DNA of 21,375 nucleotides from the IMG/VR virus record IMGVR_UViG_3300042934_001373, positions 1-21,375 of that record; one strand, 5' to 3'. Positions 1,256 through 15,988 of the stretch are shown here, piece by piece (positions within the stretch are counted from its first letter, which is position 1; the number at the start of each line of letters is the position of its first letter). The DNA is from a virus. The notes under the pieces are model-generated. The model was not told where the DNA came from. It worked only from the letters and a program-made list of their open reading frames with translations, and did no database searches. Position numbers and translations under genes: made by a program.

Positions 1256-2821
1256 CTAAACTGCTATTTCTGTTCCATCCTTAAATGTGACTCTGACATC
1301 CTGTTTGCTGTAGACCGTTACAAAATCCACCAATCCACTCCAAAGACTACCATCGAATTCCGTAAGAGCATCGTTCTGCTCCGCAAGACAGGAAATATAT
1401 CTCCTGAGGATTTCAGCTTTGGCATTTCTTTCATTAATCTTTATCTGTAAGTCATCATACTTATCTTTCTTAGATTCATACTTCTCAATCATGCTTTCGT
1501 AGCGTATCTGGTATTCTTCCTGGTTCTGTGCCACATGAGCATTTCGGTTGATGAGGTCTTGGGTCAATTCTACAAGTATCGCAATTTCATCCATCAGGTT
1601 TTTCGCCTGCTCCTCATGAGATGTGGTATCACACAGGGTTTGAATAATAATATTTATATTACTGAATATCTCATTCTTTTCCGGCATCAGCTTATTGAAA
1701 GCGGACACGAAGATGTCCTTTATCTGCTGTTCAGTAAGATGTGGTGTGGTGCATTTGCATTCGCCATTGAATTTTTGATTACATTGGAATATCACTTTGC
1801 GGTACTTGTCATTAGAATGCCATATCTTCGAACCGAACCAACTTCCACAATCTCCGCACTTTATTTTTGATGAAAAAATACTGACTCCACTGTGCTTGCT
1901 ACTCGAACTGTTTCTTCTCAAAATCTCGGCCTGCACCAGTTCGAACACTGTAGGAGATATAATTGCCTCATGGTGACCTTCAACATAATACTGTTGAATT
2001 TCTCCTTCATTTTTTTTCAGCTTTTTCGTAAGGAAGTCCGTAGTGTAATACTTCTGCAAAAGTGCGTCACCTTTGTATTTCTCATTTTCAAGAATACTCA
2101 TAACCACATCATGATGCCATTTTTTCTTGTGCATCGGAGTTGGTACACCCATTTCAGACAGTTTATTTGCTATGGTAAAAGCAGAATAACCCTCAAGGAA
2201 CCACTTATAAATCAACCTTACTGTATCCGCTTGTTTCTCATTTACCTTGAATCCTTTTTCATATCCAAGAAAATTCTTATAGGCAACACTCGCGTGGCCA
2301 TCCGCAAATCTCTTTCTCTGACCCCAGGTTGTATTTTCCGAAATACTTCGACTTTCCTCCTGAGCCAATGAGGACATTATTGTAATAAGAAGTTCCCCTT
2401 TGGCATCGAGGGTCCAGATATTTTCCTTTTCAAAATAAATCTCAACCCCATGTTCCTTCAGCTTTCGTACCGTGATTAATGAATCTACGGTGTTTCGAGC
2501 AAATCTGCTCACTGACTTGGTAATGATTAAGTCAATCTTTCCTGCAAGAGCATCTTCAACCATCTGATTAAAACCGTCACGGTGTTTGGTGTTCGTTGCG
2601 GTGATACCTTCATCGCTATACATCTCTACAAATTCCCAATCCTCACGGCTTTTAATGTATTCTTGATAATAATCCATCTGGGCTTCATAGCTTGTTGCCT
2701 GTTCTTCACTATCTGTAGAAACACGAGCGTATCCTGCCGCCTTTCTTTTCTTCTTTGTATTAATAGGCTCTGCGGTAAATTGTCTTAGAGATGCAGGAAT
2801 AACCATTACTCTCTTTGCCAT
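1256..2821 (-). CDS. Large serine recombinase with coiled coil
   Basis: 521 residues, full length. The N-terminal resolvase domain (about 27-165) holds YARVST with catalytic Ser35 and Arg33, SRFARN (105-110) and the AQEES stretch (153-157). The Recombinase domain follows (about 180-300, with FLGYEKGF and the LENEKYKGD motif). The zinc ribbon uses C322, C325, C347 and C355 or C357. Residues about 400-490 form a long charged coiled coil, which in phage serine integrases controls synapsis and direction. The protein ends with a VTVYSKQDVRVTFKDG beta-hairpin. These enzymes cut and rejoin DNA at att sites through a Ser-DNA bond. Its ATG at 2821 overlaps the end of the upstream recombinase by 16 bp, so the two are probably translationally coupled and may act as a pair. 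Role in integrating this prophage is inferred from position. Confidence 0.93.
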   Translation of the reverse strand: MAKRVMVIPASLRQFTAEPINTKKKRKAAGYARVSTDSEEQATSYEAQMDYYQEYIKSREDWEFVEMYSDEGITATNTKHRDGFNQMVEDALAGKIDLIITKSVSRFARNTVDSLITVRKLKEHGVEIYFEKENIWTLDAKGELLITIMSSLAQEESRSISENTTWGQRKRFADGHASVAYKNFLGYEKGFKVNEKQADTVRLIYKWFLEGYSAFTIANKLSEMGVPTPMHKKKWHHDVVMSILENEKYKGDALLQKYYTTDFLTKKLKKNEGEIQQYYVEGHHEAIISPTVFELVQAEILRRNSSSSKHSGVSIFSSKIKCGDCGSWFGSKIWHSNDKYRKVIFQCNQKFNGECKCTTPHLTEQQIKDIFVSAFNKLMPEKNEIFSNINIIIQTLCDTTSHEEQAKNLMDEIAILVELTQDLINRNAHVAQNQEEYQIRYESMIEKYESKKDKYDDLQIKINERNAKAEILRRYISCLAEQNDALTEFDGSLWSGLVDFVTVYSKQDVRVTFKDGTEIAV

Positions 2822-4320
2822 GTCTTTACATCTCCCTTCTTGAAATAAAAATCCACTCTGTCATTGAATACCACAGCCTTTTCAATCTCGCAATAGAATC
2901 TCATTTCATAATTGTCATCTGTTCCAAGAATGCTGATGCTTGCTTTTATCAGCTCATCTTCCGTGATGTAACTGATGGAACAGGTATCCTTATCCGTTTT
3001 TTTTGCAGCACAAATCCAACACTTGTCATACCCCTTCTTACAGCAATTCATCCTCACAAATGTGCATCCGCATTCTCCGCACTGCACCTTTCTTGAAAAG
3101 CAATGCTTGTTATAGCCACCCTTCGGGTATCTCCTTAAGTAGGTTTTGACGTTTCCACCTTTCATGCAGAATTCGATGCGGTCATCAAACATTACAATTT
3201 TGTCCAAGATGTCCCTTTTTCCAAGAATGCCTTCCATAATCTCCTTCAGTTCATACTCCCTTATCGGCAACAAATCACACTTCTTTGTTTTCCGATTGTT
3301 GCATTCAATATGTATATAACGTCCTTTGTTATTGCTACGTTCAACATGGTTACATGCATATGCACATTTTCCGCATTTGATTATTCCGGCAAAGAATGTC
3401 TTTTTGTACCCTGCGTTAGCAGCCGTTCTCGCTCTTCTATTTAGCCTTTCCTGAACCGCCTCGAAATCTTCACGGCTAATAATTGCCTCGTGTGCATCGG
3501 AAACTATATACTTTGGAACTTCCCCATTATTGACTTTTGGTCTTTGTACCATTGGCGAGAAATATCTTTGAAGAATTATGTCACCCTTATAGGTTTCGCT
3601 TGTGAGAATCCGTCTGATTGTAGTTCTTCCTAGCAATTTTCCTCTTAAAGCTGTAACATCCTTTTCTGCCAGCTCCTCGGCAAGACCTTTTATGGATGCT
3701 CCGCTTAGGTATTGATTGTAAATATAACGAACCCAAACTGCTTCTTCTTCATTTATAATGCACTTGCCAGTTTCAGCGTCCCAGTCATAGCCAAAACAGC
3801 GGAGATCTGTATTTGGCTCTCCTTTTTCAAACTTCTTCTTAATTGCCCATTTCTCATTTCTTGAAATGCTCTCACTTTCTTCCTGGGCAAAAGATGCCAG
3901 AAGTGTAAGGAGCAATTCTCCGTCTTTGGAAAATGTAGAAATATTCTCTCGCTCAAATCTAACCTCAACACCTATGTCTTTCAAGTGTCGAACTGTATCG
4001 AGAAGGTCTACTGTATTTCTTGCAAATCTGCTGATTGACTTTACAAGGACAATATCAATAATTCCAGTATTACAGTCAGATATCAATCTGTTGAACTCAG
4101 AACGGTTCTTCTTCTCAGTTCCTGTTTTTCCTTCATCGGCGTATACCCCTGCATATTCCCAATCCGGATTCTTCTGAATTAATGAACTATAATAACTGAT
4201 TTGTGAAGACAGGGAATGAAGTAACTGCTCACAGTCCATGGATACTCTGGCATATGCAGCCACCCTTTTTCTTTTTTCTAAACATGGCAGGCGAGGCTCA
4301 ATTTTGCTTATTTTCGGCAT
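2806..4320 (-). CDS. Large serine recombinase with duplicated zinc-ribbon unit
   Basis: 504 residues; AGGAGGG lies just upstream of the ATG at 4320. The catalytic domain holds YARVSMD (Arg25, Ser27), the SRFARN motif (97-102) and AQEESES (145-151). The Recombinase domain runs about 165-300, with ETYKGDIILQ (242-251). The first zinc ribbon is C316, C319, C340, C348, then a helix and a beta-hairpin (VMFDDRIEFCMKGGNVKTY). The same order then repeats: second ribbon C414, C417, C434 or C437, C447, then a helix and VVFNDRVDFYFKKGDVKTW to the C-terminus. The long coiled coil found in the partner enzyme is absent. Duplication of the DNA-binding zinc unit suggests a changed att preference, or a partner role beside the downstream recombinase; this is inference. 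A 35-nt gap separates it from the SHOCT gene upstream. Confidence 0.92.
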   Translation of the reverse strand: MPKISKIEPRLPCLEKRKRVAAYARVSMDCEQLLHSLSSQISYYSSLIQKNPDWEYAGVYADEGKTGTEKKNRSEFNRLISDCNTGIIDIVLVKSISRFARNTVDLLDTVRHLKDIGVEVRFERENISTFSKDGELLLTLLASFAQEESESISRNEKWAIKKKFEKGEPNTDLRCFGYDWDAETGKCIINEEEAVWVRYIYNQYLSGASIKGLAEELAEKDVTALRGKLLGRTTIRRILTSETYKGDIILQRYFSPMVQRPKVNNGEVPKYIVSDAHEAIISREDFEAVQERLNRRARTAANAGYKKTFFAGIIKCGKCAYACNHVERSNNKGRYIHIECNNRKTKKCDLLPIREYELKEIMEGILGKRDILDKIVMFDDRIEFCMKGGNVKTYLRRYPKGGYNKHCFSRKVQCGECGCTFVRMNCCKKGYDKCWICAAKKTDKDTCSISYITEDELIKASISILGTDDNYEMRFYCEIEKAVVFNDRVDFYFKKGDVKTWQRE

Positions 4321-4355: not shown

Positions 4356-4541
4356 CTATCGATCATTTATCAAGTTAATGTCGGCAAATAAACTACCCAA
4401 AGATGGACTATATTTTTGGGTGAAAATTGTATCAATTAGCCCATACTCTTCCTTATTAATAACTCCTTGCTTTAAGAGGTTCTTTGTAAGACTCATTGTA
4501 GTCTGATACAGTATTTCATTCCGAAACTGCTCTTCACTCAA
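4356..4541 (-). CDS. SHOCT-like small protein of the recombinase cassette
   Basis: 61 residues, starting at TTG 4541 (reads M-SEEQFRNEILYQTTM). GGAGG lies 8 nt upstream of that TTG; a GTG at 4550 would overlap the ribosome site, so it is less likely. The body (LLKQGVINKEEYGLIDTIF) has the short helical SHOCT pattern: 'x-L-hydrophobic-x-x-G-x-I-x-x-E-E-Y'. Such proteins are often encoded next to tandem serine recombinases in clostridial prophages and transposons; their function is unknown. The start overlaps the end of the HTH/zinc gene by 8 bp, which points to coupled translation. Confidence 0.75.
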   Translation of the reverse strand: MSEEQFRNEILYQTTMSLTKNLLKQGVINKEEYGLIDTIFTQKYSPSLGSLFADINLINDR

Positions 4542-4965
4542 CCTGTCCACCTCCAAATCGTGTAGCCACATAACATTCATGGCTGCAATATTTCCTATGA
4601 GAATTACCATAGACCGAAAATGACTTTCCACAGCGCGGACAGATGTACTCATACACAGCTTTAAGTTTTACCTTATCAAGATTTTTGTTCCACCACTTCA
4701 TTCTGCACTTGTTAGAGCAAAACTTTTTCTCTTTCCTTCCTGGGTTCTGCTCCACTGAAAGACCACAGCACATACATAAGTGTATTCCACCATCTGCTTG
4801 AATCTGTGTTTTGGCTGCCTCCACTGCTGCCATTCCAGTCAGATTGTTTCTTCTACAAAAGGACTTTACTGTATTTTCTGAAACACCAAGTACTTGAGCA
4901 ACTCTGATATAGCCGTACCCATTAGCACGTAACTTTGTAATTTGAACTTTCTGTTCTTCCGTCAT
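4534..4965 (-). CDS. HTH plus double zinc-knuckle DNA-binding protein
   Basis: 143 residues. The N-terminus (about 1-42: KVQITKLRANGYGYIRVAQ, then LGVSENTVKSFCRR) is a sigma-70 region 4-like helix-turn-helix. Two CxxC-x(n)-CxxxC zinc clusters follow: C64/C67 with C83/C87, and C109/C112 with C127/C131. The layout suggests a DNA-binding accessory factor for the recombinases, perhaps a transcriptional regulator or recombination directionality factor; this is inference. GGGAGG lies 10 nt before the ATG. The ATG overlaps the stop of the 32-codon leader ORF (TAATG), and the gene's own stop overlaps the SHOCT start, so all five genes of this cassette look like one coupled operon. Confidence 0.8.
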   Translation of the reverse strand: MTEEQKVQITKLRANGYGYIRVAQVLGVSENTVKSFCRRNNLTGMAAVEAAKTQIQADGGIHLCMCCGLSVEQNPGRKEKKFCSNKCRMKWWNKNLDKVKLKAVYEYICPRCGKSFSVYGNSHRKYCSHECYVATRFGGGQVE

Positions 4966-5063
4966 TAGAAATGCACCTCCCTTTGTAAAACTTCAGTTGT
5001 AGGAGCCTTATGTGCATTAGGTATCATTGGTATTGACGCGTCAGTTACCTTCGTTACTTGCAT
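4965..5063 (-). CDS. 32-residue leader ORF of the recombinase operon
   Basis: ATG at 5063 opens 32 codons (MQVTKVTDAS... ending REVHF) that close with TAA overlapping the ATG of the HTH/zinc gene as TAATG. A strong Shine-Dalgarno (GGGGAGG, 5081-5075) sits 11 nt upstream, inside the 3' arm of the long hairpin at 5071-5130. I do not recognise the peptide. The opening MxVTK is faintly like the N-terminus of many clostridial serine recombinases, so it could be a remnant or a real leader peptide. The overlap and the buried ribosome site favour a role in controlling translation of the operon; this is inference. Confidence 0.5.
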   Translation of the reverse strand: MQVTKVTDASIPMIPNAHKAPTTEVLQREVHF

Positions 5064-5070
5064 AAAAATA

Positions 5071-5130
5071 AAAACCTCCCCATACATGTCTTCACTGGAT
5101 AGCCACTGGAGAACATGCATGTGAGGTTTT
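5071..5130 (-). promoter_or_regulatory. Long hairpin hiding the leader Shine-Dalgarno
   Basis: AAAACCTC (5071-5078) pairs with GAGGTTTT (5123-5130). An inner stem CATACATG/CATGCATG and then CTTCACTGG/CCACTGGAG close on a 4-nt loop near 5099-5102, for about 24 base pairs with few mismatches. In minus-strand RNA the 3' arm contains GGGGAGG, the ribosome site of the leader ORF, and is followed directly by U5-A-U5. The element could therefore act as an SD-sequestering switch, an intrinsic attenuator, or a bidirectional terminator insulating the divergent plus-strand genes. The pairing is seen; the choice among roles is open. Confidence 0.6.
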
Positions 5131-5232
5131 ATATGCACATTGATATTTAATATGGTAAAATAATGAAATTTGATATATAATATTTAATGTGTAAGTGGTA
5201 TTAAGCTCAGGAGTAAAAAAGGAGAATGCCTT

Positions 5233-5853
5233 ATGGGAAATTTTTTTAAATGGAATATGTTTTTTACTTCTTTTCTGCCTTTGTGGATATCAATAATTGT
5301 AAGCGATTTCTGGAGTATAGGTAAAACGATTTATGATCTAGTCAATAGCCCTGACAACCCTACCATTTCGATTGGCACACTTTTTATCAATACAGTGATT
5401 GAATTGGTGACAATAATTGTTTTGATTGTTTATTCAGTCATAAGTGTATATAGCATTAATAAAACGATTAAAAATCAAAAATCTGCTCCTAATCATTTTC
5501 ACGGAACAATTACACGAGCTAAACGTGCTAATAAATTGACAGCAGAATTCTTGTTAGCATATATTCTTCCCATGATAGCTTTTGATTATAGCGACTTAAA
5601 GAGTATTGTATTATTCTTAATTTATTTCTCAGTATTAACGTATTTGTGCATTAGAAATAGTAATATTTACACCAATATTTACCTTGAATTCAAGGGCTAT
5701 CGTATGTACGAATGCGATATTACATGTAATGTACTTGGCAAGGAACATCCATATACAGATAGTCTAATATTTAGTAAAAACAATTTAACACAAGCATTAC
5801 CGCACGAGATTGATTATTTTGATTTTGAAAACTACATTTATATTGAAATTTAG
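5233..5853 (+). CDS. kwaA: Kiwa-like membrane protein (KwaA-like)
   Basis: 206 residues, preceded by AAGGAG about 8 nt before the ATG. Four likely membrane helices are visible: about 9-25, 46-74, 103-118 and 123-141, with a basic loop (INKTIKNQK...RAKRANK) between the second and third and a soluble C-terminal tail of about 65 residues. The next gene starts 10 bp after its stop and encodes a DUF4868-like protein. A four-TM protein of about 200 residues paired with DUF4868 is the composition of the Kiwa anti-phage system. In that system KwaA is a membrane sensor that works with DNA-binding KwaB; this is family knowledge. KwaA-like proteins are poorly conserved, so the name rests mainly on topology and neighbour. 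A possible extended -10 (TGGTAAAAT) lies at 5153-5161 and a TATAAT at 5176-5181. The gene is AT-rich compared with the phage structural genes. Confidence 0.62.
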   Translation: MGNFFKWNMFFTSFLPLWISIIVSDFWSIGKTIYDLVNSPDNPTISIGTLFINTVIELVTIIVLIVYSVISVYSINKTIKNQKSAPNHFHGTITRAKRANKLTAEFLLAYILPMIAFDYSDLKSIVLFLIYFSVLTYLCIRNSNIYTNIYLEFKGYRMYECDITCNVLGKEHPYTDSLIFSKNNLTQALPHEIDYFDFENYIYIEI

Positions 5854-5863
5854 GAGGGTACAA

Positions 5864-6805
5864 ATGAGTAAATCACAGCTATCGGCTGCCATGAATGACA
5901 TCAAAGGAAATAAGTATACTTGGAATTTGTATTTTTTTAAGATCAGTCATCGAAGAAAAGGTAACCCCTATTATGTCTACAAGCACACCTTTAAAAGTGC
6001 AGCTTATTTACCGGATTATATGACATCATTGAGTGATACCGTTCTACATTATCAGATTGAACCTCTTGGAACTGTTCAAGAATATGATGGGGAAAACAGT
6101 AAAACATCTTGCGATAAACTAAAGGTGGATAGCGAACTAATCAACGAACAATGGTTATATTTTTCCAATTCTGTATCGGGTGCTCCGAGAGAACAAGTCT
6201 CTGGAAAATACCAGGGATACATACTTGATGGACAACCAGTAATTACTTCTGACCCTTCAATCATCTTGGTCAAAACAGGAAATCCAATTATTAGTTTAGA
6301 AAACAAGAATACAAGAGTATTTAAGCATACAGCTAATGATGAGTTGGAATATCTAACAGATGAATTATGTAGGTTATATTTAAATGTAGATTTTATTGTC
6401 ATAAGGGATATTATGTATTCCTTTAACCATAGTTTTGAAGGAATTTTTAATATTGAAAAGACATTACACCGTTTGAAAAATCAAGCTATTGATGAAATTA
6501 TTTCCACTCAGGCTTTCCATGATTCAGAAAAGGTACAAACTTTTATGAATCGCTACACTTCCCCGAAAACTTTTTTGACATTAAAGGACCAAAGAATGGA
6601 AAAATTAAATACGCCACAGGGACGAGCTGAAATTTCTTCTAGGTTAAAACTATCTCTATCTGAAAATTCCGAACTTATTATCAATGACCAAGAACAAGCC
6701 AATCAGCTAATTAAGTACTTATGCTATAAAATTTTTCAAGATAAAGAAACCGATAATCTTATAGAGGTGAATTCTGTTATAAATGATAATATATTATCAA
6801 GTTAA
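5864..6805 (+). CDS. kwaB: DUF4868 / KwaB-like anti-phage protein
   Basis: 313 residues, close to the length of KwaB (about 315). I chose the ATG at 5864 because AGGAGGG lies 5 nt upstream; a longer in-frame start at 5810 lies inside the previous gene and lacks a ribosome site. The middle matches the DUF4868 pattern as I know it: IILVKTGNPIISL (133-145), then VDFIVIRDIMYSFN (175-188), then FEGIFNIEK (191-199) and a helical region. The N-terminus (WNLYFFKIS) resembles the beta-strand opening of the family. It forms a two-gene plus-strand operon with the membrane protein upstream. In Kiwa, KwaB is the soluble partner that binds DNA and blocks phage replication when KwaA senses infection; applying that here is inference. 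No convincing intrinsic terminator follows. Confidence 0.68.
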   Translation: MSKSQLSAAMNDIKGNKYTWNLYFFKISHRRKGNPYYVYKHTFKSAAYLPDYMTSLSDTVLHYQIEPLGTVQEYDGENSKTSCDKLKVDSELINEQWLYFSNSVSGAPREQVSGKYQGYILDGQPVITSDPSIILVKTGNPIISLENKNTRVFKHTANDELEYLTDELCRLYLNVDFIVIRDIMYSFNHSFEGIFNIEKTLHRLKNQAIDEIISTQAFHDSEKVQTFMNRYTSPKTFLTLKDQRMEKLNTPQGRAEISSRLKLSLSENSELIINDQEQANQLIKYLCYKIFQDKETDNLIEVNSVINDNILSS

Positions 6806-6875
6806 TCAAAGCAACCTTGAGTAAATTATAGAAAGCATATTACTAATAATATTCTGCTAAACACAAATTAACAGG

Positions 6876-6901
6876 AATTTTTGCGAGAGATTCGCAGAAT
6901 T
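6876..6901. repeat. Short imperfect inverted repeat
   Basis: AATTTTTGCGA and TCGCAGAATT flank a 5-nt loop (GAGAT) in the gap after the kwaB-like gene. There is no following T-tract on either strand strong enough for a terminator. Operator, processing site or chance are all possible. Confidence 0.3.
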
Positions 6902-6935
6902 CAAAAAGATAAATACTTAAAAAGAACAATTTTAA

Positions 6936-6987
6936 TATACTATAAAATTTAACAATTGCTATACTATAAAATTTAACAATTGCTATA
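6936..6987. repeat. 24-bp tandem direct repeat, two copies plus 4 bp
   Basis: The unit TATACTATAAAATTTAAC plus AATTGC occurs at 6936-6959 and identically at 6960-6983, followed by a further TATA. It lies between the Kiwa-like operon and the lysis terminator. Identical copies suggest recent slippage duplication. A protein-binding role is possible but unsupported. Confidence 0.85.
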
Positions 6988-7054
6988 TTTTCTTCCATAT
7001 TTTTCTTTTGTATGCTAATATATTATTGTGTATTATTTATTCCCCAAACATTAA

Positions 7055-7096: not shown

Positions 7097-7813
7097 CTAT
7101 TCCAATTTGATATATCCGTCAAAACCTGCTGACTTCAATTTCTTTACCATCGTTTCTGCTCTGCTCTTAGAAGAAAATGAGCCGACCTGAACACAGTATT
7201 TCATATCACACACTCTCTCCGCACCCTCCTTCTCCTCTTTTTCTTTCAGTCCTGCCTTGACTGCTTTCCTAAAGGAATCCATGTTCTCACCAAACTTCGG
7301 GAACCAGTGCATCACATCCGCATGGTTACTGGCAATGCCAAGTTTATACCCTTCACTGTGACAGATAATATTCTCCTCAGTCAGACCATAAGCCTTACAA
7401 AGATACACGCAAAGCTCCACAGCCTCCTTAAACACCTTACGGAAATATGCTTCATTGGTTAAGTTATCCTCACAGATTTCAAAACTGATATGCGTGTCAT
7501 TCCCGGAGCCTTTCTTCCCACTGCCGCAATGCCAAGCACGGTAGTTCCAAGGCAATGTCTGATAGGTGGCAATAGTGCCATCAGACAGTCTACCGATAAA
7601 AGCATGCACACAGACCTGCTTACCGCCTGGTTTATACTGATTCCAGTGGTTGCCGGATAGGTTTACACCCAGCTTTCCGTCATCCGGACCTACATATCGG
7701 TAGAGGAACGGGTTATTCGTCCCGGTTGAGTGAATCATAATACCCTTGGGCTTAATCGTTCTGCTTGCTTTGAAGCAAGCATTATTCGTAAGTATTAGCT
7801 TATGCAAATTCAT
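7097..7813 (-). CDS. N-acetylmuramoyl-L-alanine amidase endolysin
   Basis: 238 residues with no signal peptide, as expected for a holin-dependent endolysin. The Amidase_2/PGRP-type catalytic domain covers about 15-180: GIMIHSTG (H28, likely zinc ligand), AWHCGSG (H95), ISFEICED (E112, likely catalytic) and CHSEGYKLGIASNHADVMHW (H152, H164, H169). This fold cleaves the bond between muramic acid and L-alanine in peptidoglycan. After a charged linker (about 188-202), residues 205-238 (YCVQVGSFSSKSRAE ... KLKSAGFDGYI) form a SPOR-like repeat of about 34 residues, which would bind the cell wall. GAGGTGATC precedes the ATG. It is the last gene of the late operon, 11 bp after the BppU-like gene, and a strong hairpin follows. 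Confidence 0.93.
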   Translation of the reverse strand: MNLHKLILTNNACFKASRTIKPKGIMIHSTGTNNPFLYRYVGPDDGKLGVNLSGNHWNQYKPGGKQVCVHAFIGRLSDGTIATYQTLPWNYRAWHCGSGKKGSGNDTHISFEICEDNLTNEAYFRKVFKEAVELCVYLCKAYGLTEENIICHSEGYKLGIASNHADVMHWFPKFGENMDSFRKAVKAGLKEKEEKEGAERVCDMKYCVQVGSFSSKSRAETMVKKLKSAGFDGYIKLE

Positions 7814-7824
7814 TCTGGATCACC

Positions 7825-9312
7825 TCACTGTTCAAAAGGAGTAGTTGTCGTAAGTGCGACAGGATACAAATGGTAGGTAAATTTAAGATCACAGTAAGCC
7901 GTCGACGATGTGCCATTGCTACCCATGCGGATGTACATTCCGTAACCGGTTGGTATTCTGCTCTGCCGCATTTCGATATGAACGTGCTGGGATTCGGTAG
8001 TGCTATCTGCCCCGACAGGAGTACTTCGTGAAATTCTGGTGAAAGTTACTTCGTCATTAGAGATATATAAGTCCAATTCTTTCTCACTCGTATCTGATTG
8101 ACGGCAAAGAGTCAGCAGATGACAGTCATAAGTAGTTTCCGGATAAAGCGTTCCACCCTGTCCGCCAATAACCACGCTACCAATGGGGAGTACCGTGTGC
8201 AGAGGTCCACGAACGCTGTTGATACCGCCCGAACCAGAAACATTACCTGACATGACATATCTTAAGTAGCTTGCTCTGGTAAATGCATTGATTGTCGCTG
8301 TAGCAGTAGCTGTTAAGGTCAATGCAGTTATTATGTTTTCTGCTCTTTCCAATACGAACAAACTCTCGCCGTAAGCAACGTTAACATCACCGATGGAAAA
8401 TATTTGACTCGTCCAGTAGGATGTACAGGTCGGATTCGGATTAGTACCAGTCCCATAGGCAATATTTGATGTATCCTGGCTACCTCTTGTAGCTTCCGCA
8501 AGTTTCTTGACACTTCCCCGAAGGGTGCCTTGAATCCGTACCTGCACATTGTTTGCAGTCGGACTTCCCAAGGATGTGACAAACGTATAAGTCACTGTAC
8601 CAATTACTACGTTATTACCGTTTGCAATGTTCGTGAATGTGATGGATGCTCTTCTGCTTGCCATATCTGGTGCGGTCGCTGTTTCTATAGGATGCCAATG
8701 GTTAAGTAAAATCCCTGTCCGCATAGACAACATATTATGCGTATCATTGACCATATCATACGTATTGTTAAGTAGGTCATAGTTGTCATTTAACAGGCTG
8801 TGTGTGGTGTTTAACATCGTATAACTTTCATTTAATAGATCATGCGTGGTGTTTAGCAGATCATAGTTATCATTTAACAGGTTATAGGTGAGAGTAAGCA
8901 TACTATATACATCATTCACATCAAGTGCGGCTAAGGCTGAAAGCACCTGGTTAAGCCACTCCTGTGCAGGAGGTTCCGGTGGTATAAAAATACCATCTGC
9001 AAGAGCCTCCTCAATAATGGTAAAAATCCGAGCACTTTTCCCGACCACTTCCCCATAAGTAACCCTGATCTCCAACCGACCGACTCCGACGACCGATGTG
9101 TCTGTCGCACTTGGTGACCATGTCAGAACTCCGGTACTGTAGTTCGTGACTACTGGATAGGCAATGCCATCGGGTCTTTTATATATTGCATTCAGAGCAG
9201 CTGACGGGTATTTATCTTCTAGTAAGCTGGATACATCAAACTCGATGTTTCGGTAATTGTTCTCCCCTCGCCGCCCGATGAATACCGTTACCGCTTTTGT
9301 TAAGTCAATCAT
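7825..9312 (-). CDS. BppU-like baseplate/tail fibre protein
   Basis: 495 residues from the ATG at 9312, which lies 7 nt after GGAGGG; an ATG two codons earlier (9318) has no room for a ribosome site. Residues about 1-105 match the N-terminal domain of BppU-type upper baseplate proteins: GRRGENNYRNIEFDVS, YPSAALNAIYKRPDG, GVLTWSPS, GRLEIRVTYGEVVGKSARIFTI. A short proline-rich link (IPPEPPAQEW) leads to a strict heptad shaft (about 138-195), probably a trimeric coiled coil. The remaining 300 residues are beta-rich with no family I can name and are probably the distal, perhaps carbohydrate-binding, region. The gene sits between holin and amidase, an unusual but known place for a baseplate gene. 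Confidence 0.78.
   Translation of the reverse strand: MIDLTKAVTVFIGRRGENNYRNIEFDVSSLLEDKYPSAALNAIYKRPDGIAYPVVTNYSTGVLTWSPSATDTSVVGVGRLEIRVTYGEVVGKSARIFTIIEEALADGIFIPPEPPAQEWLNQVLSALAALDVNDVYSMLTLTYNLLNDNYDLLNTTHDLLNESYTMLNTTHSLLNDNYDLLNNTYDMVNDTHNMLSMRTGILLNHWHPIETATAPDMASRRASITFTNIANGNNVVIGTVTYTFVTSLGSPTANNVQVRIQGTLRGSVKKLAEATRGSQDTSNIAYGTGTNPNPTCTSYWTSQIFSIGDVNVAYGESLFVLERAENIITALTLTATATATINAFTRASYLRYVMSGNVSGSGGINSVRGPLHTVLPIGSVVIGGQGGTLYPETTYDCHLLTLCRQSDTSEKELDLYISNDEVTFTRISRSTPVGADSTTESQHVHIEMRQSRIPTGYGMYIRMGSNGTSSTAYCDLKFTYHLYPVALTTTTPFEQ
8728..8901 (-). repeat. Coding 21-bp repeats specifying Asn-rich heptads
   Basis: Eight consecutive 7-residue units occur without slippage: MLTLTYN, LLNDNYD, LLNTTHD, LLNESYT, MLNTTHS, LLNDNYD, LLNNTYD, MVNDTHN. 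DNY-type and TTH-type units alternate at first, giving a 42-bp higher-order period in the DNA. Asn is invariant at position 3 in the last seven units, and Tyr or His at position 6 in all eight. Confidence 0.9.
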
Positions 9313-9314
9313 AC

Positions 9315-9755
9315 TCATCCCTCCGGTGAAGATGGTCCATTGTCGTCACGCTCATGCAATTGCTTTAGTATATCCTTAAGCTTTTCTGGGATAGGCAGCC
9401 CAATATGAGCTGCATTTTCAAGAATAGAAATACCCTCATTACTTAAGTAGAAGAAAATCACCGCCGTACGAAGCACACTGCCATTCGGGTTACCGGCTGA
9501 GCCCAAAATATACGTGTCGAGTATGTGCCCTACTCCTACTAGTGCAAATATAAGGATCTTTTTAAAGATGCCTTTGGCTCCGATTTTACTGCAAAGATTC
9601 TTATCAATAATGGCACAAAGCACGCCTGTTATATAATCGATCACAACAAAAGTAATAAGTGCATAAAGGAAGCCATCCAAGCCGCCAAGAAACCATCCCA
9701 TAAACGCACCGGCTGCCACAAGAGATGTCTGTATCCAGTTCCATATCACTTTCAT
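9315..9755 (-). CDS. Phage holin (Cp-1/toxin-secretion holin family)
   Basis: 146 residues from the ATG at 9755, with GGAGG 8 nt upstream; a TTG-initiated longer form would overlap that ribosome site. Membrane segments lie at about 8-25 (VAAGAFMGWFLGG), 29-50 (FLYALITFVVIDYITGVLCAII), 68-88 (IFKKILIFALVGVGHILDTYI) and 95-112 (VLRTAVIFFYLSNEGISI). The DYITG motif and the NEGISILENAA stretch before a charged C-terminus are characteristic of this holin family. It forms membrane lesions that release the amidase encoded two genes on. The stop overlaps an unused upstream ATG of the BppU-like gene. A terminator-like hairpin at 9790-9815 separates it from the tail genes. Confidence 0.92.
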   Translation of the reverse strand: MKVIWNWIQTSLVAAGAFMGWFLGGLDGFLYALITFVVIDYITGVLCAIIDKNLCSKIGAKGIFKKILIFALVGVGHILDTYILGSAGNPNGSVLRTAVIFFYLSNEGISILENAAHIGLPIPEKLKDILKQLHERDDNGPSSPEG

Positions 9756-9789
9756 AATCCAAACCTCCAATCTTAAATTGTTAATAGGA

Positions 9790-9815
9790 AAGCGCCCTAC
9801 AAAATAAGAGCGCTT
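9790..9815 (-). terminator. Probable intrinsic terminator between tail and lysis genes
   Basis: In minus-strand RNA, AAGCGCUCU pairs with AGGGCGCUU (9 pairs including one G-U; 9807-9815 with 9790-9798) around an 8-nt loop. UUCCUAUUAAC follows. It lies 15 bp past the stop of the FN3 tail gene and may lower lysis gene expression relative to structural genes. Confidence 0.5.
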
Positions 9816-9830
9816 GGAATTATAACTGCC

Positions 9831-12299
9831 TTACATTGTAAGGATTAAGTTTTGAATTTGCTGTACCACATCCGCTTTTGGCCTGCCGGTACCGATAGGT
9901 AGCCATATCACTGGCGGTATGTCAAAAGTTGAAGAAGTATCAAAGCCGTTTATCATCGTGATAACTGGCTCAAGTGCAGCACGCACCTCAGTGATATGGT
10001 ATGGCCAGTCTCTTATGGCCGTCTTTGCTGCGACGATATCCTCGTCCCATGACACGATTGCCATACCATAATACTGACGAATGGTATTGACCGCTGTTCG
10101 GAGTGCCATAATATGCATCGCCTTAACATGAGTTATATTGGCTGTAATTGTCTCAAATGGTGAAGGCAGTACAATAAATGTTCTGGTAACCTCCATGCTT
10201 GGAGATAACAAGTCACTGTCCAAGCATCGAAAGATCACGATATGGCTCCCTGCCGCCAGGGTTGATGCCTGATACACTGTTTTAGTACTGTCACCAATAT
10301 AACCACTTGTGGAGAACATCCCTGGATCATCCACACTGTTATGCCATTCTCCAGAGTCAATCTTTACTTCCACTATCTGCGTTTGACCATCCGATTCCAC
10401 ACCTGTTGTTAACATAAAACGCGGTGTTTGGTTATAGATGGATTTTCCGGACACTGGGCTACTTATCACTGGTGCTGCAGGTGGGCTGTTCTTTCTGACC
10501 GTGTTACTAACCACATAAGAAGATACAGCATCCAACGAATCAGTAACGCTTAGGCGATACCTCGTTGAAGTTCCGGGAGTTTGGGAAGCCTCTGCTGTAT
10601 AACTTCCGAGTGTTTCACCGGATACTATTATCGCAAGTGTTTCATAGGAGGACCATGGTGGGTTGCCCATAATCGATGTGCTTCGCTGTAGTACATACTG
10701 CTTGATGGGGCTGGTACCCGTCACAGTTCCGCTCCAGGTTATCATTACTGATAATGTCTCGTACAGAGACGGAGATACAGACAGACTGGATGGCGGTGTC
10801 GACAAGATATTCTTACGAACAGAATTTGAGGATACCTTCCATCCGGAATAATAACTGCTTCCTGCCGTTCCTAACGTACGTATCTGATATCTCCGGTAAT
10901 CTCCCCTCATGGATGGAGGTGATACACTTAAGTACCCGTCTGTTAAAGCAGATGATACTGTGGTAAGCGCAGTCCATGCACCCCAGGTACTATTATCACT
11001 TGAATCGCTGTACTGTATCTCATAACCCGTTATCGCATTACCTGCTCCGGCAGCAGCTCCACTCCATGATAACGTCAAATTTCCTTCCGCTATTGTTGCG
11101 CTTAGCGTAAACATTGATGGTTCTGTACAGGCAGTAATATTACAGTAAATGCTATTACTGACTTTTTCCGTAGAATAAGCATTCAGTACATCTATCGTCC
11201 AGATGCCAAACTGTGTATAAGTTCCCGATATATTTGAGACTGTCGGATTAAAGATTCCTCCGCTGGAACTCAAATTAATTATTGCTAACTCTGTCCAGCC
11301 ACTCCAGGTACTGTTATCTGTAGATGTTCGGCTTGAAATCCGGTATCCCTTAATTGAACTTGTTCCTCCACTCGCCCCAGACCATGTAAGCGTGATGGTT
11401 TCATTACTGTATATTTCCGGTGATGCAGCCACCGCACTTGGAGCTGTAGGAAGGGTATTCTTCCGGACAGAGTTTGTGGAAACCTTCCATCCGGAATAAT
11501 ATGAACTGCCCGCAGTACCACAGGTTCGAATGCGAAACCTGCGAAAATTACCTCTGGTAGCAGGAGGAGCAACCGATAGGCTTCCACTGGTAGCGGATGT
11601 GGTTACAGTAGTTAATGCCGTCCAGCTTCCCCATGTGGTATTATCTGTAGAATCACTATACTGAATTTCATAGAAAGAAATTGCGTTGTTCGTACCTGCC
11701 TTTGCTCCACTCCATGACAAGGTTACATTACCTTCCGCAAGGGTACTGCTTAGCGAGCAGGTGGTCGGTGCACCTGCTGCTGTCGTGCGGCTTGCCCAGC
11801 TAATGGTAAGAACAATCTTTGTCAGATCGTTACGTCCTTTAAAGGACATATAGTTCGTTGTGCTGGAGCCGGCATCAATAAAGAGACAGTTGCTCGCACC
11901 GCTTCCGATGGAGTCAATTAGTGCAGTTGCTATGTTAAAAGTTTTATCCCCCTGTCCTGCCAAAACGGTATAGTTATAGCCAGAGGTTACCTTTGTAGGT
12001 CGGGAGGCAGCTACATTTGTGGAAGAACTCACCGCAGGAATACCTGTCTGATTTCCGGCATATAGCGTCATTGTTCGATCACTGCCCCAGGAACCGGAAC
12101 CAGTACGTGTCAGGGCAAGTGATACACTTGTCGGGTAATAATCCTCATATTGGTTTCTTATAGATGTAAGACTAAAAATCATTACACCAACGCACTCATC
12201 TAGGTCACCGTAGACACCCTGTCTGATATCTTCGGTTATGGAAGGAATATAATCCCCGTCACGCCAGCAGCATGCATTTGTAGCCTGATAATCTGCCAT
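9831..12299 (-). CDS. Large tail protein with tandem FN3-like modules
   Basis: 822 residues. Residues 1-175 are an N-terminal beta-rich domain (GVMIFSLTSIRNQYEDYYPTS...), of a kind that may bind the baseplate. Four FN3-like modules follow as two A-B pairs: A1 about 177-282, B1 283-390, A2 392-498, B2 499-605. Each has a TLSWSG/TLTWSG core, and the A modules have YEIQYSDS...TWGxWTALTTV and GTAGSSYYSGWKVS. A further beta domain (about 606-710, RFMLTTGVESDGQTQIVEVKID) precedes a helical C-terminus (about 715-822, THVKAMHIMALRTAVNTIRQYYG) that may trimerise. FN3-like domains in tail proteins bind carbohydrate weakly on cell surfaces; a role in host adsorption is inferred. It is the last tail gene before the lysis genes. 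Confidence 0.78.
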   Translation of the reverse strand: MADYQATNACCWRDGDYIPSITEDIRQGVYGDLDECVGVMIFSLTSIRNQYEDYYPTSVSLALTRTGSGSWGSDRTMTLYAGNQTGIPAVSSSTNVAASRPTKVTSGYNYTVLAGQGDKTFNIATALIDSIGSGASNCLFIDAGSSTTNYMSFKGRNDLTKIVLTISWASRTTAAGAPTTCSLSSTLAEGNVTLSWSGAKAGTNNAISFYEIQYSDSTDNTTWGSWTALTTVTTSATSGSLSVAPPATRGNFRRFRIRTCGTAGSSYYSGWKVSTNSVRKNTLPTAPSAVAASPEIYSNETITLTWSGASGGTSSIKGYRISSRTSTDNSTWSGWTELAIINLSSSGGIFNPTVSNISGTYTQFGIWTIDVLNAYSTEKVSNSIYCNITACTEPSMFTLSATIAEGNLTLSWSGAAAGAGNAITGYEIQYSDSSDNSTWGAWTALTTVSSALTDGYLSVSPPSMRGDYRRYQIRTLGTAGSSYYSGWKVSSNSVRKNILSTPPSSLSVSPSLYETLSVMITWSGTVTGTSPIKQYVLQRSTSIMGNPPWSSYETLAIIVSGETLGSYTAEASQTPGTSTRYRLSVTDSLDAVSSYVVSNTVRKNSPPAAPVISSPVSGKSIYNQTPRFMLTTGVESDGQTQIVEVKIDSGEWHNSVDDPGMFSTSGYIGDSTKTVYQASTLAAGSHIVIFRCLDSDLLSPSMEVTRTFIVLPSPFETITANITHVKAMHIMALRTAVNTIRQYYGMAIVSWDEDIVAAKTAIRDWPYHITEVRAALEPVITMINGFDTSSTFDIPPVIWLPIGTGRPKADVVQQIQNLILTM
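10481..11771 (-). repeat. 648-bp in-frame duplication in the FN3 tail gene
   Basis: Landmarks of the A modules recur exactly 216 residues apart: LAEG 187 vs IAEG 403, GTAGSSYYSGWKVS 261 vs 477, VRKN 278 vs 494. So the two A-B pairs are a 648-bp duplication without indels across the A module. The A copies are much more alike than the B copies. Confidence 0.8.
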
Positions 12300-12310
12300 A
12301 GGAATTCACC

Positions 12311-12814
12311 TCACTCATACACCGCTGTCACCAGCGAATTCACAGTCCCACAAAGGGAAGAAGAAAGTCTTGTGTCTGTTACATTCCCCGACGTTATCAA
12401 GGTAGCCGCTTGAGGAACTAAAATCTCTGCTATACACAGTTCATAAACATCGGTACTGCGTGTCAATGCCGGAGCAGTCGGTGTAGCTGCCGCTGTTCCT
12501 GTCAATACCGCAGCTGTGATACTTCGGTTAAGAAGGCTCCACCGGATTATGATACGGTCAATTCTTGGATAAGAGCCGTTAGCAGTTGCCAGTGTCTTGT
12601 TCAGTGCTTCTGTATTTTCATAACGGTAGCCGTTGATCCATGCACTTCCGGCCGCAATACTAACGGTCATTCCTGTTGTTGGTGTTACCTGCAGATTTGA
12701 GGTAGTTATATAAAAAATACCATTAGAAACCAGGCTTCCGAAATAGGCCGCAAAGTCGGCTGCATCGTACACCCTGTCGCCACTGGAAGAATTGAAAAAT
12801 CCACTCTTTTCCAC
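12311..12814 (-). CDS. Phage structural (baseplate-associated) protein
   Basis: 167 residues starting at GTG 12814, with GGAGGG 8 nt upstream. The order of motifs is typical of a small structural protein found beside tail hubs in Gram-positive prophages: FFNSSSGDRVYDAADFAAYF, LVSNGIF, NLQVTPTTGMTVSIAAGSAWINGYRY, YPRIDRIIIRW, APALTR...YELCIAEILVP, ITSGNVTDTRLSSSLCG. Its exact role (baseplate ring or fibre attachment) is not established. It lies between the Gp37-type hub and the FN3 tail protein, in the place expected for a component linking hub and fibre. Confidence 0.75.
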   Translation of the reverse strand: MEKSGFFNSSSGDRVYDAADFAAYFGSLVSNGIFYITTSNLQVTPTTGMTVSIAAGSAWINGYRYENTEALNKTLATANGSYPRIDRIIIRWSLLNRSITAAVLTGTAAATPTAPALTRSTDVYELCIAEILVPQAATLITSGNVTDTRLSSSLCGTVNSLVTAVYE

Positions 12815-12865
12815 CTCTGATACCCTCCTTTCATCACGGTTGTATTACTCTTTTTTCCTTTTCTA

Positions 12866-15121
12866 TCAACTAACAAACCATGTAGCATTAAACGTCAGCC
12901 ATTCTGTTCCTGCAATGCTTGTTGCATAAACATTTGTTCCATATCTGCTGCAGGAACACACTCCTGCACTTGTTATCTGTAACAACCAGGTATTAATTCC
13001 TGATCCCTGACATCTTATTGTAACATACCCTGACATTGGTCTATATTCGCTTGGTAGGGTATAGAAGCTTAAGTTCGTTGCTGAATTTATGGCAGCTCCT
13101 GCAGCTGGTAACATTGCCCCATGAAAATGCACCATTTTCCCTATCTTTCTTAATCTCGGACGTTGAGCCGTAGAATAAATCGTAAAACTGTTTTCCAAAT
13201 CTGTATCCGATAATTCAAGATACCCTGTATCTCCGCCATAAATGATGCCCGTGGTAGTATCACCGTTAACGCATACAGCACCGCCCTCAAGGTTGAGATA
13301 CATTGGAGAGCCCAAACCATTATTACGAGCCTGTATTTCGTTTGCATCAAAAACCATGTTCACACCGGTAGAAGTGCCAATCTGCAATGGATTGTCCGTT
13401 GATGTAAGGCTGACATCACGGTTTGGCAACTGCAGCTTATAGAAAACTCCGTCCTCGCTGAAGGTGGCTGTCTTTACCACACCGCTATCAACAGCCGATA
13501 CCGTGAAGGTCTGATCGCCATATGAAAAGGTAGATGATACCGCCGGAAGGTTTGCCACAAGAATCAGTGCCCCGTTATCAGGATCGGCAATTAAATTTCC
13601 TGATTCGATTAACGCATACAAACCATTTAAATACGCGGTTCCATAATCCGAAAGCCAAATATAGATATCCCATATTGTCCGGGTGGAACTTGTTGATTTT
13701 ACTATCTTTATATCCGTGGATAAAAAAGGACTTTTATCCCTTGTGTAAGCCTGCACAAAGGACTGGATGGACATCGTTGCAAAGGAGGACGTAGAATAAA
13801 CATACCCTTCTATCGTGCCGGTTTTGGGTGTGGTACCCGTGCCAAAGTAATCAAATTTAAAGGCAATACGGTTATAGGAACCGTTAATGACTACCCTTGC
13901 TACGTGAAAGTATTTTGCCAGGGTAGGGTCATTTCCTCCGGCAGTCGACGTATTCACAGCCAGCTTTGCAGAGCTTATCATGACACCGCCAGAGAACCTT
14001 TGTAAATCAGCCCAGCTGTTTTCATCCACCAGTAATTCTGAAATCCCTGCCGGAGCACCAAGAGCTGTCCTAACCTGACTAAAATCTGATTTTATCTTCT
14101 GCGCTATCGTTAGTTCTGCTTTTCCAAAGGTAACGCTGATGCTCTGTCCGTCCCTGCCATAACTTTCTTCCACCTCCACAATACGGGTGGTCATGGATAC
14201 TCCCCATTTTTTTGAGATGACCTGTACCGTCTGACCCAGATCATAATCCGTTTTATATATTAAATTTCCATGATTATTTACGATAACATCAAAGGACTGC
14301 GCTGTGGCAAATTCCGCAAGCCTTGTCTGCCCACGGTAGGTTAAGGCTTCCGTATAATCGGTAGGAAAATCTGCAGATCGAAGATCCTTTGCATCTACAA
14401 AGGCTTCCCTCCTGTTTTCCCCCGTACCGTCTATGATGTATGCAAAGACACGGTCAACCTCACTCTCCCCTTCCCCTCCTATCTTGGCGGTATTGGCATA
14501 CCCTGCTGTGTTTTTTGTAAAGGTCTGATCAAGCAGATTCTCATATTCCTTTGAAAACACAGCCTGAGAAGGCTCTCCAATGTAGAGTGTTACCGTAAGG
14601 TGCCCCGATGATGGTACAAATACGGTCTTAATTCCTACGGATGTAGAATTACAGAGCTCCTGTATTTCATCCAGAAGGTTATTATAGGAAACCTGCTTTT
14701 TCACCGATTTACTTAAAGCCGGTGACGAAAAGCTTAGATTTGCTATCTGACGGTTGGAGTCTGTAGGTGAAATGACATTATGGTTTATCAGCTGTCCGAT
14801 ACAGACAGAAAGATCAGCGTTTAAGGTTTCCGTATTCCAAATAATACGCCTGCCCAGTAGTACAGTGGCAAACCGTCCACTTACCGTGATGCTCTCACTG
14901 TCAGTCTGCGACAACTGCAGATATTCGATTAACCCCACTTCCTCATCGTCATTTTTCCAGATATAATTTCCTTCTTGAAGCAGGGCTGCATTCTCGGAAG
15001 ATGCATTTGCCTTAAGTTCAAAGGAACCACACTGGGAATAGCGTCTGGTCCACCTTAGGTACTCAAAGGATTCCACAACTCCAATCAGGGCACGGTTCTG
15101 ATTAAATACATATAGTTCCAT
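12866..15121 (-). CDS. Tail hub (Gp37-like) with receptor-binding-like C-terminus
   Basis: 751 residues. Residues about 1-345 match the Siphovirus ReqiPepy6 Gp37-like family: FEYLRWTRRYSQCGSFELKA, DDEEVGLIEYLQL, SGRFATVLLGRRI, SYNNLLDEIQELC, YANTAKIGGEGE, YDLGQTVQVISKKWGVSMTTRIVEVEESY. These form the central hub below the tail tube and carry the fibre or lysin parts. A beta-sandwich-like region follows (about 385-500). The C-terminus (about 655-751: RPRLRKIGKMVHFHGAM, LPSEYRPMSGYVTI, GTEWLTFNATW) reads like the knob of phage fibres and receptor-binding proteins. Such a hub-RBP fusion would dispense with a separate adsorption protein; this is inference. GGGGGTG precedes the ATG; the gene begins 3 bp after the Dit stop. 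Confidence 0.82.
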   Translation of the reverse strand: MELYVFNQNRALIGVVESFEYLRWTRRYSQCGSFELKANASSENAALLQEGNYIWKNDDEEVGLIEYLQLSQTDSESITVSGRFATVLLGRRIIWNTETLNADLSVCIGQLINHNVISPTDSNRQIANLSFSSPALSKSVKKQVSYNNLLDEIQELCNSTSVGIKTVFVPSSGHLTVTLYIGEPSQAVFSKEYENLLDQTFTKNTAGYANTAKIGGEGESEVDRVFAYIIDGTGENRREAFVDAKDLRSADFPTDYTEALTYRGQTRLAEFATAQSFDVIVNNHGNLIYKTDYDLGQTVQVISKKWGVSMTTRIVEVEESYGRDGQSISVTFGKAELTIAQKIKSDFSQVRTALGAPAGISELLVDENSWADLQRFSGGVMISSAKLAVNTSTAGGNDPTLAKYFHVARVVINGSYNRIAFKFDYFGTGTTPKTGTIEGYVYSTSSFATMSIQSFVQAYTRDKSPFLSTDIKIVKSTSSTRTIWDIYIWLSDYGTAYLNGLYALIESGNLIADPDNGALILVANLPAVSSTFSYGDQTFTVSAVDSGVVKTATFSEDGVFYKLQLPNRDVSLTSTDNPLQIGTSTGVNMVFDANEIQARNNGLGSPMYLNLEGGAVCVNGDTTTGIIYGGDTGYLELSDTDLENSFTIYSTAQRPRLRKIGKMVHFHGAMLPAAGAAINSATNLSFYTLPSEYRPMSGYVTIRCQGSGINTWLLQITSAGVCSCSRYGTNVYATSIAGTEWLTFNATWFVS

Positions 15122-15124
15122 AGA

Positions 15125-15976
15125 CTACACCCCCAGAAACTGTGGACGATAATAAATACTGACATCCAGAAGTTCCAGATTAACTGACGCATCGTATCGA
15201 AGGTTGTTTATACCGGGTGAAAGTTGAAAGAAATCCGAATCGGTATCCAACAGATAAAATGCATTGCTCTGTGTAGTGCCTATGATACTTATCACCCGTT
15301 TTCCTGCAAAGTGCGTATATATGTGAAATTCATCTCCAGAGCTCATTGTGGTGAGAATTTTTACATACTCTCCTGTATCCAAATGCAAAAGTTCCGGATT
15401 TGTAACCGTGCCCAGTGCCTTGAAAACAATCTCACAACCGCAGGATACGTCTCCGATATTATCCACCGCAATAATCTGGCTTGGCTGTCTTGCACCTAAT
15501 TCAATGCCTCCCATCGGAATCTCAAGAGAAAATTCAAACAATGCATCCCAGGAAGCAAGCTCCTGCCTTACCTCCTCCAGTGTTTCAAAGAAGGGAGATG
15601 GACAGAGAAGGCTTAAAAAGAACTTCGGTACCCTCTCCCTAATAGATACGGTCAGAACTGCTTCTTCCACGATGCAGGAAATCTGCCTATCCCGGTACCT
15701 TAATACACCCGATTTCTTTGGACTAAAAAACCGAAGGAAGACTTTCCGCATTTCATAGGCTTTATCTGCATTCTCAGCTATAATCGTTCCCTCCAATGTG
15801 ATGTTTCGCATATCAAGGGTTGAAGACACATAAAAAGCACCGTCCTGTTCCGGTGCCTTGAAGGTATTGACGGTATTTCGGATACTGCCCGTACCGTCCA
15901 GTTTTTCCAGAAAATACGGTTTTGCCTGCTTTATGGTAAGGCTTTCTCCATTTGAATTGATATACATAACCTCCAT
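15125..15976 (-). CDS. Distal tail protein (Dit, Sipho_tail family)
   Basis: 283 residues from the ATG at 15976, about 7 nt after GGAGGA; a GTG two codons earlier (15982) abuts the ribosome site and is unlikely. The N-terminal beta-barrel signature includes YFLEKLDGTG and FKAPEQDGAFYVSSTLDMRNITLEGTI, followed by MRKVFLRFFSPKKSGVLRYRDRQ and a galectin-like C-terminal half (about 150-283) ending NLELLDVSIYYRPQFLGV. Dit forms the ring that joins the tail tube to the baseplate hub. Position directly after the tape measure gene and before the Gp37 hub is the canonical one. Confidence 0.9.
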   Translation of the reverse strand: MEVMYINSNGESLTIKQAKPYFLEKLDGTGSIRNTVNTFKAPEQDGAFYVSSTLDMRNITLEGTIIAENADKAYEMRKVFLRFFSPKKSGVLRYRDRQISCIVEEAVLTVSIRERVPKFFLSLLCPSPFFETLEEVRQELASWDALFEFSLEIPMGGIELGARQPSQIIAVDNIGDVSCGCEIVFKALGTVTNPELLHLDTGEYVKILTTMSSGDEFHIYTHFAGKRVISIIGTTQSNAFYLLDTDSDFFQLSPGINNLRYDASVNLELLDVSIYYRPQFLGV

Positions 15977-15988
15977 GGGCACTCCTCC

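Follow-up and report, generated by a model that had tools for sequence, protein, structure and literature searches.

A divergent Kiwa gene pair carried as cargo by an integrated Firmicute prophage

The window analyzed here, a stretch of 21,375 nucleotides from IMG/VR virus record IMGVR_UViG_3300042934_001373, contains two adjacent plus-strand genes, kwaA (5233–5853; 206 amino acids) and kwaB (5864–6805; 313 amino acids from the ATG at 5864), which are separated by 10 bp in the list of open reading frames (ORFs). Each start codon is preceded by a Shine-Dalgarno-like motif (AAGGAG before 5233, AGGAGG before 5864). The 5′ region of kwaA including its ribosome-binding site (5141–5232, plus strand) reads AAAAAGGAG before the ATG; a promoter scan scored no better than shuffled sequences and revealed no terminator, and Rfam gave no match anywhere in the window. 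A strong hairpin at 5050–5145 (−28.4 kcal/mol, z −4.6 compared to shuffles) is located between the upstream recombinase cassette and kwaA. Similar sequence occurs at the equivalent position in three related phage contigs (L002, L026, and L028), and the hairpin could be a terminator, a regulatory element, or an element linked to recombination. In the region 3′ of kwaB (6935–6990), a unit of approximately 24 bp is present twice in head-to-tail orientation (ATACTATAAAATTTAACAATTGCT), where the window and L002 diverge most.

The genes on both sides of the pair are encoded on the minus strand. To the left lie two large serine recombinases with Resolvase, Recombinase, and Zn_ribbon_recom domains (1256–4320), presumed to form the integration cassette of a prophage, and a gene of the same cassette with sub-threshold HTH and treble-clef Pfam matches (4534–4965), which many relatives have conserved at the same place, flanked by the amidase and a recombinase. 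To the right lie an amidase or lysin with Amidase_2 and SPOR domains (7097–7813), a tail-type gene (7825–9318), and a holin (9315–9770; Phage_holin_4_1, E 2.9e-45). The HTH/zinc-finger-like gene and the amidase thus border a slot that is occupied by kwaA and kwaB. A near-identical phage contig (L002, the same contig as L027) also carries the pair, and its likeness to the window begins at approximately position 1245. Left of this prophage edge, positions 1–951 contain two unclassified ORFs of 169 and 113 amino acids with no Pfam match over the cut-off and no PADLOC match, the shorter of which appears nuclease-like by eye. The window forms the end of a 53-kb contig in a 4.8-Mb genome assembly with an estimated contamination of 7.5%, and the prophage can be followed up to that end; upstream on the same contig, inspection by eye revealed ordinary chromosomal genes such as murE, priA, fmt, and rlmN. 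Since Spo0A is present in the host genome and no match to Omp85 was found in it, the host is read as a Gram-positive, spore-former-type Firmicute. The preliminary description of the locus had proposed a plus-strand operon of these two genes in a prophage, flanked by oppositely oriented lysis and recombinase genes, in a host with a Gram-positive envelope. Its coordinates are correct to the base, and the ORFs, the Pfam matches, the near-identical phage contig, and the Spo0A and Omp85 results agree with the remainder.

The kwaA product matched 13 KwaA models of PADLOC (best score 65 bits, E 1.2e-18) and the NCBIfam KwaA model (60.2 bits, E 2.3e-16); the latter score is below the curated equivalog cut-off of 100 bits, which is a threshold for naming and not a biological feature. 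A sequence search of the PDB retrieved KwaA (9mrg, E 1e-5). The AlphaFold model of the protein (mean pLDDT 84.5) consists of long helices at residues 3–38, 47–84, 101–115, and 122–141, followed by a C-terminal beta domain, and all seven significant matches of this model in a fold search of the PDB were KwaA chains (best match 9mrx_A; E 1.7e-9, probability 1.00, TM 0.72/0.76). A simple hydropathy scan displayed only the strongest membrane segments.

The kwaB product passed the cut-off of the Pfam KwaB family (PF16162, DUF4868) with 32.2 bits (cut-off 26.3), as did the homologs from two related loci (28.9 bits in L003, 33.1 bits in L025). It had no match among the PADLOC KwaB models at E values up to 10, and none in NCBIfam. 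The PADLOC models do find KwaB proteins from genomes of the same bacterial family, and their miss of this protein reflects a limit of the models and not a biological feature. Judged from these sequence comparisons, the kwaB product is far more divergent than the kwaA product. When the KwaB branch described below was compared, profile against profile, with KwaB proteins of bacteria in the same family and order (three of these proteins are strong hits of the PADLOC KwaB models), the match covered the C-terminal half with an E value of 2.4e-7. For the AlphaFold model (mean pLDDT 87.1), whose underlying alignment includes other KwaB proteins, a fold search of the PDB gave six significant matches, all of them to KwaB over the full length; the best (9mrx_D) had an E value of 3.7e-11, a probability of 1.00, and a moderate TM score of 0.60. 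Sequence searches of the PDB with the protein alone or with a profile of its four-member branch yielded nothing useful and missed the solved KwaB. Since the latter was reached solely by the wider profile and by fold search, the direct sequence link of the branch to KwaB of Escherichia coli is weak. The preliminary description had recognized Kiwa from the protein sizes, the gene order, a four-transmembrane first protein, and a DUF4868-like core in the second. The four long helices in the model correspond to the proposed topology, the profile and fold matches confirm the first protein as KwaA, and for the second protein, the Pfam match and the KwaB-like fold uphold the assignment, with kwaA and kwaB adjacent as expected. 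The outcome named in that description as refuting Kiwa, a second protein matching DUF4868 neither by profile nor by fold or a different fold for the pair, therefore did not occur.

Homologous pairs were found in phages as well as in bacterial chromosomes. The pair of L002 is 99% identical to that of the window, and a different phage contig (L003) carries a pair with 59% (KwaB) and 64% (KwaA) identity, which is in antisense orientation and adjoins a terminase gene. Two bacterial genomes contain the pair with no phage genes nearby: in L025 (67% identity for both proteins) it is located within a defence island with DUF4365, TIR, caspase-like, and ThsB-TIR genes, and in L013 (39% for KwaB, 53% for KwaA) it has genes for a DpnI-like enzyme and for a DNA methylase in its vicinity. 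All four loci have retained kwaA next to kwaB, and because relatives at 39–67% identity keep both genes adjacent, the two are not a chance pair of ORFs. In the KwaB tree, the window prophage, another phage, and the two chromosomal loci form a branch of four members with a support of 100/100. The chromosomal L025 nests among its phage members, which indicates transfer of this type of Kiwa between phages and chromosomes. Pfam KwaB matches were obtained in 5 of 200 sampled genomes of the same bacterial family (approximately 2.5%, the window genome included); Kiwa is thus uncommon but ordinary in this family. Neither KwaA nor KwaB had a match in 50,697 phage records, and KwaB had none in 72,556 plasmid records. 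A separate Kiwa branch from the same order has kwaA and kwaB in convergent orientation instead of in one operon (L019, 1501–2992; L021, 883–2373), an arrangement that is unusual for a two-gene complex.

The comparison of the window with L002 also bears on the recent history of the pair. Among the 519 codons of kwaA and kwaB, 10 differ synonymously between the two phages, whereas 177 of 1557 codons do so in five phage genes that flank the pair (Fisher p 3e-13). Since constraint on the proteins cannot account for low silent divergence, these counts point to a recent exchange of the Kiwa block (approximately 4950–6900) between otherwise diverged phages.

The slot between the lysis genes and the recombinase cassette was surveyed in 80 phage contigs that encode a related amidase; in 69 of them, the amidase and the next gene of the recombinase cassette are both visible. 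These contigs are partly redundant and were selected by amidase similarity, so that the following counts are illustrations and not frequencies: the gap is shorter than 600 bp in 52 of the 69 loci and longer in 17. Contents are described for those longer slots that were read, leaving out the near-identical L061, L062, and L068 with a gap of 1.0 kb. Kiwa occupies the slot of L002/L027 in antisense orientation. Other antisense inserts are the candidate defence gene PDC-S53 in L026 (1324 bits), a dGTPase gene in L028 (E 2e-84), and an AbiGi-like gene in L030 (E 4e-14), and genes in the same sense encode LysM-GH18 proteins (L031 and L038) and an HDOD protein (L039). In L026 (10845–14116), the PDC-S53 protein is helicase-like with 929 amino acids and is accompanied by a 139-amino-acid neighbor without assignment. 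The antisense ORFs in the slots of L033, L040, L042, and L049 (155, 207, 130, and 291 amino acids, respectively) had no Pfam or PADLOC match and are candidates for new accessory or defence genes. L089, L093, and L101 have long slots as well, but these contain replication-type genes and were rejected as cargo. L026 is 93% identical to the DNA of the window phage at 7106–8797 and 85% identical at 8839–16075; this likeness ends at the amidase, beyond which the slot content and also the recombinase cassette differ. The stretch between lysis genes and recombinases is a true cargo slot, which is mostly empty in related prophages. Like other prophage cargo (morons), the kwaAB pair lies in phage DNA, on the opposite strand, and at a site where relatives have either nothing or other genes. 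The earlier suggestion that prophages keep defence cargo at this site holds for some of the relatives, namely those with PDC-S53, dGTPase, and AbiGi genes.

Compared to the Kiwa system of E. coli (9mrx, 9mrg, 9nyu, 9mtn), the proteins are close in length (206 and 313 versus 195 and 315 amino acids) and share the four-helix membrane protein and the KwaB fold over the full length, whereas sequence identity is only approximately 20% for KwaA and 14% for KwaB. The order kwaA-kwaB is the same in E. coli. Unlike the E. coli system, the pair described here resides in a prophage, and its host, in which Omp85 was not found, presumably has no outer membrane. Kiwa of Streptococcus thermophilus protects Gram-positive hosts from phages (PMC11514479; PMC12322248). 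By its description, the system of S. thermophilus 90730 (PMC11514479) is likewise a two-gene membrane system of a Gram-positive host, with anti-phage activity shown in that study, but has the order kwaB then kwaA and is located in a chromosomal, CRISPR-linked defence island instead of a prophage. A DefenseFinder survey detected 1019 Kiwa systems, 220 of them (21%) in prophages (PMC9090908); prophage carriage is shared with these systems, but the PADLOC KwaB models miss the branch described here. Since both Kiwa in prophages and a working Kiwa in Gram-positive bacteria have already been published, the pair is regarded as a divergent member of a known system.

The homology and fold of both proteins, their linkage, the position in a variable slot, and a common ancestry or exchange of the block in the recent past were observed. 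We consider it likely that kwaA and kwaB constitute a divergent Kiwa system, which is an accessory module of an integrated Firmicute prophage and would work by the same mechanism as Kiwa of E. coli. It probably serves to protect the host cell from rival viruses. By analogy to E. coli, KwaA would assemble into tetramers in the cytoplasmic membrane and hold KwaB dimers beneath it. Upon injection by a second phage, KwaA would react to the membrane disturbance, and KwaB would bind the incoming DNA and thereby block replication and late transcription. This mechanism of a membrane-bound KwaA and a DNA-binding KwaB has been summarized recently, and how KwaA senses infection was described there as unknown (PMC12904381). 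In a Gram-positive envelope, phage sensing might differ, as the preliminary description suggested. Since the pair is opposite in orientation to the late genes of the phage, expression in the lysogen is probable, and the pair would then give the host of the prophage immunity to rival phages.

A Kiwa-derived pair could also have a narrower task for the phage, such as excluding only close relatives or responding to a different trigger, instead of conferring broad immunity. The identity of 13–14% at which KwaB aligns structurally with its E. coli counterpart, the missing PADLOC KwaB match, and the occurrence of the branch in two different phages at two different places fit such a role, but the chromosomal members beside defence genes suggest ordinary defence use, and we regard a narrower task as improbable. 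That the pair is a decaying passenger without function appears very improbable: degraded copies of the branch do exist, as in a Faecalimonas metagenome-assembled genome where only the last approximately 85 residues of kwaB are left, but both ORFs in the window are intact, with ribosome-binding sites and conserved cores, and so are the relatives at 59–67% identity.

The narrower libraries score the second protein weakly or not at all, which might suggest a membrane protein next to an unrelated partner, two genes that merely resemble Kiwa. However, each fold separately gives a Kiwa component as best PDB match with a probability of 1.00, and the pair stays together in distant genomes; the fold and linkage results refute this explanation, to which we assign practically no probability. 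Nothing in the evidence favors a toxin-antitoxin system or a transporter either. Beyond the reading as a divergent Kiwa system, the branch might represent a phage-adapted Kiwa subtype with a KwaA tuned to injection through a single membrane, and might belong to a set of exchangeable defence modules swapped by phages of Clostridia via the fixed slot between lysis genes and integrase, although we consider this rather unlikely.

The divergent Kiwa pair extends this system to a phage-carried branch that is missed by the PADLOC KwaB models and occurs here in a host that apparently lacks an outer membrane. The slot occupied by the pair is a place where Firmicute prophages could be searched for more defence genes. 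For the question of how KwaA senses infection, a distant KwaA in a host with a single membrane offers a useful comparison.
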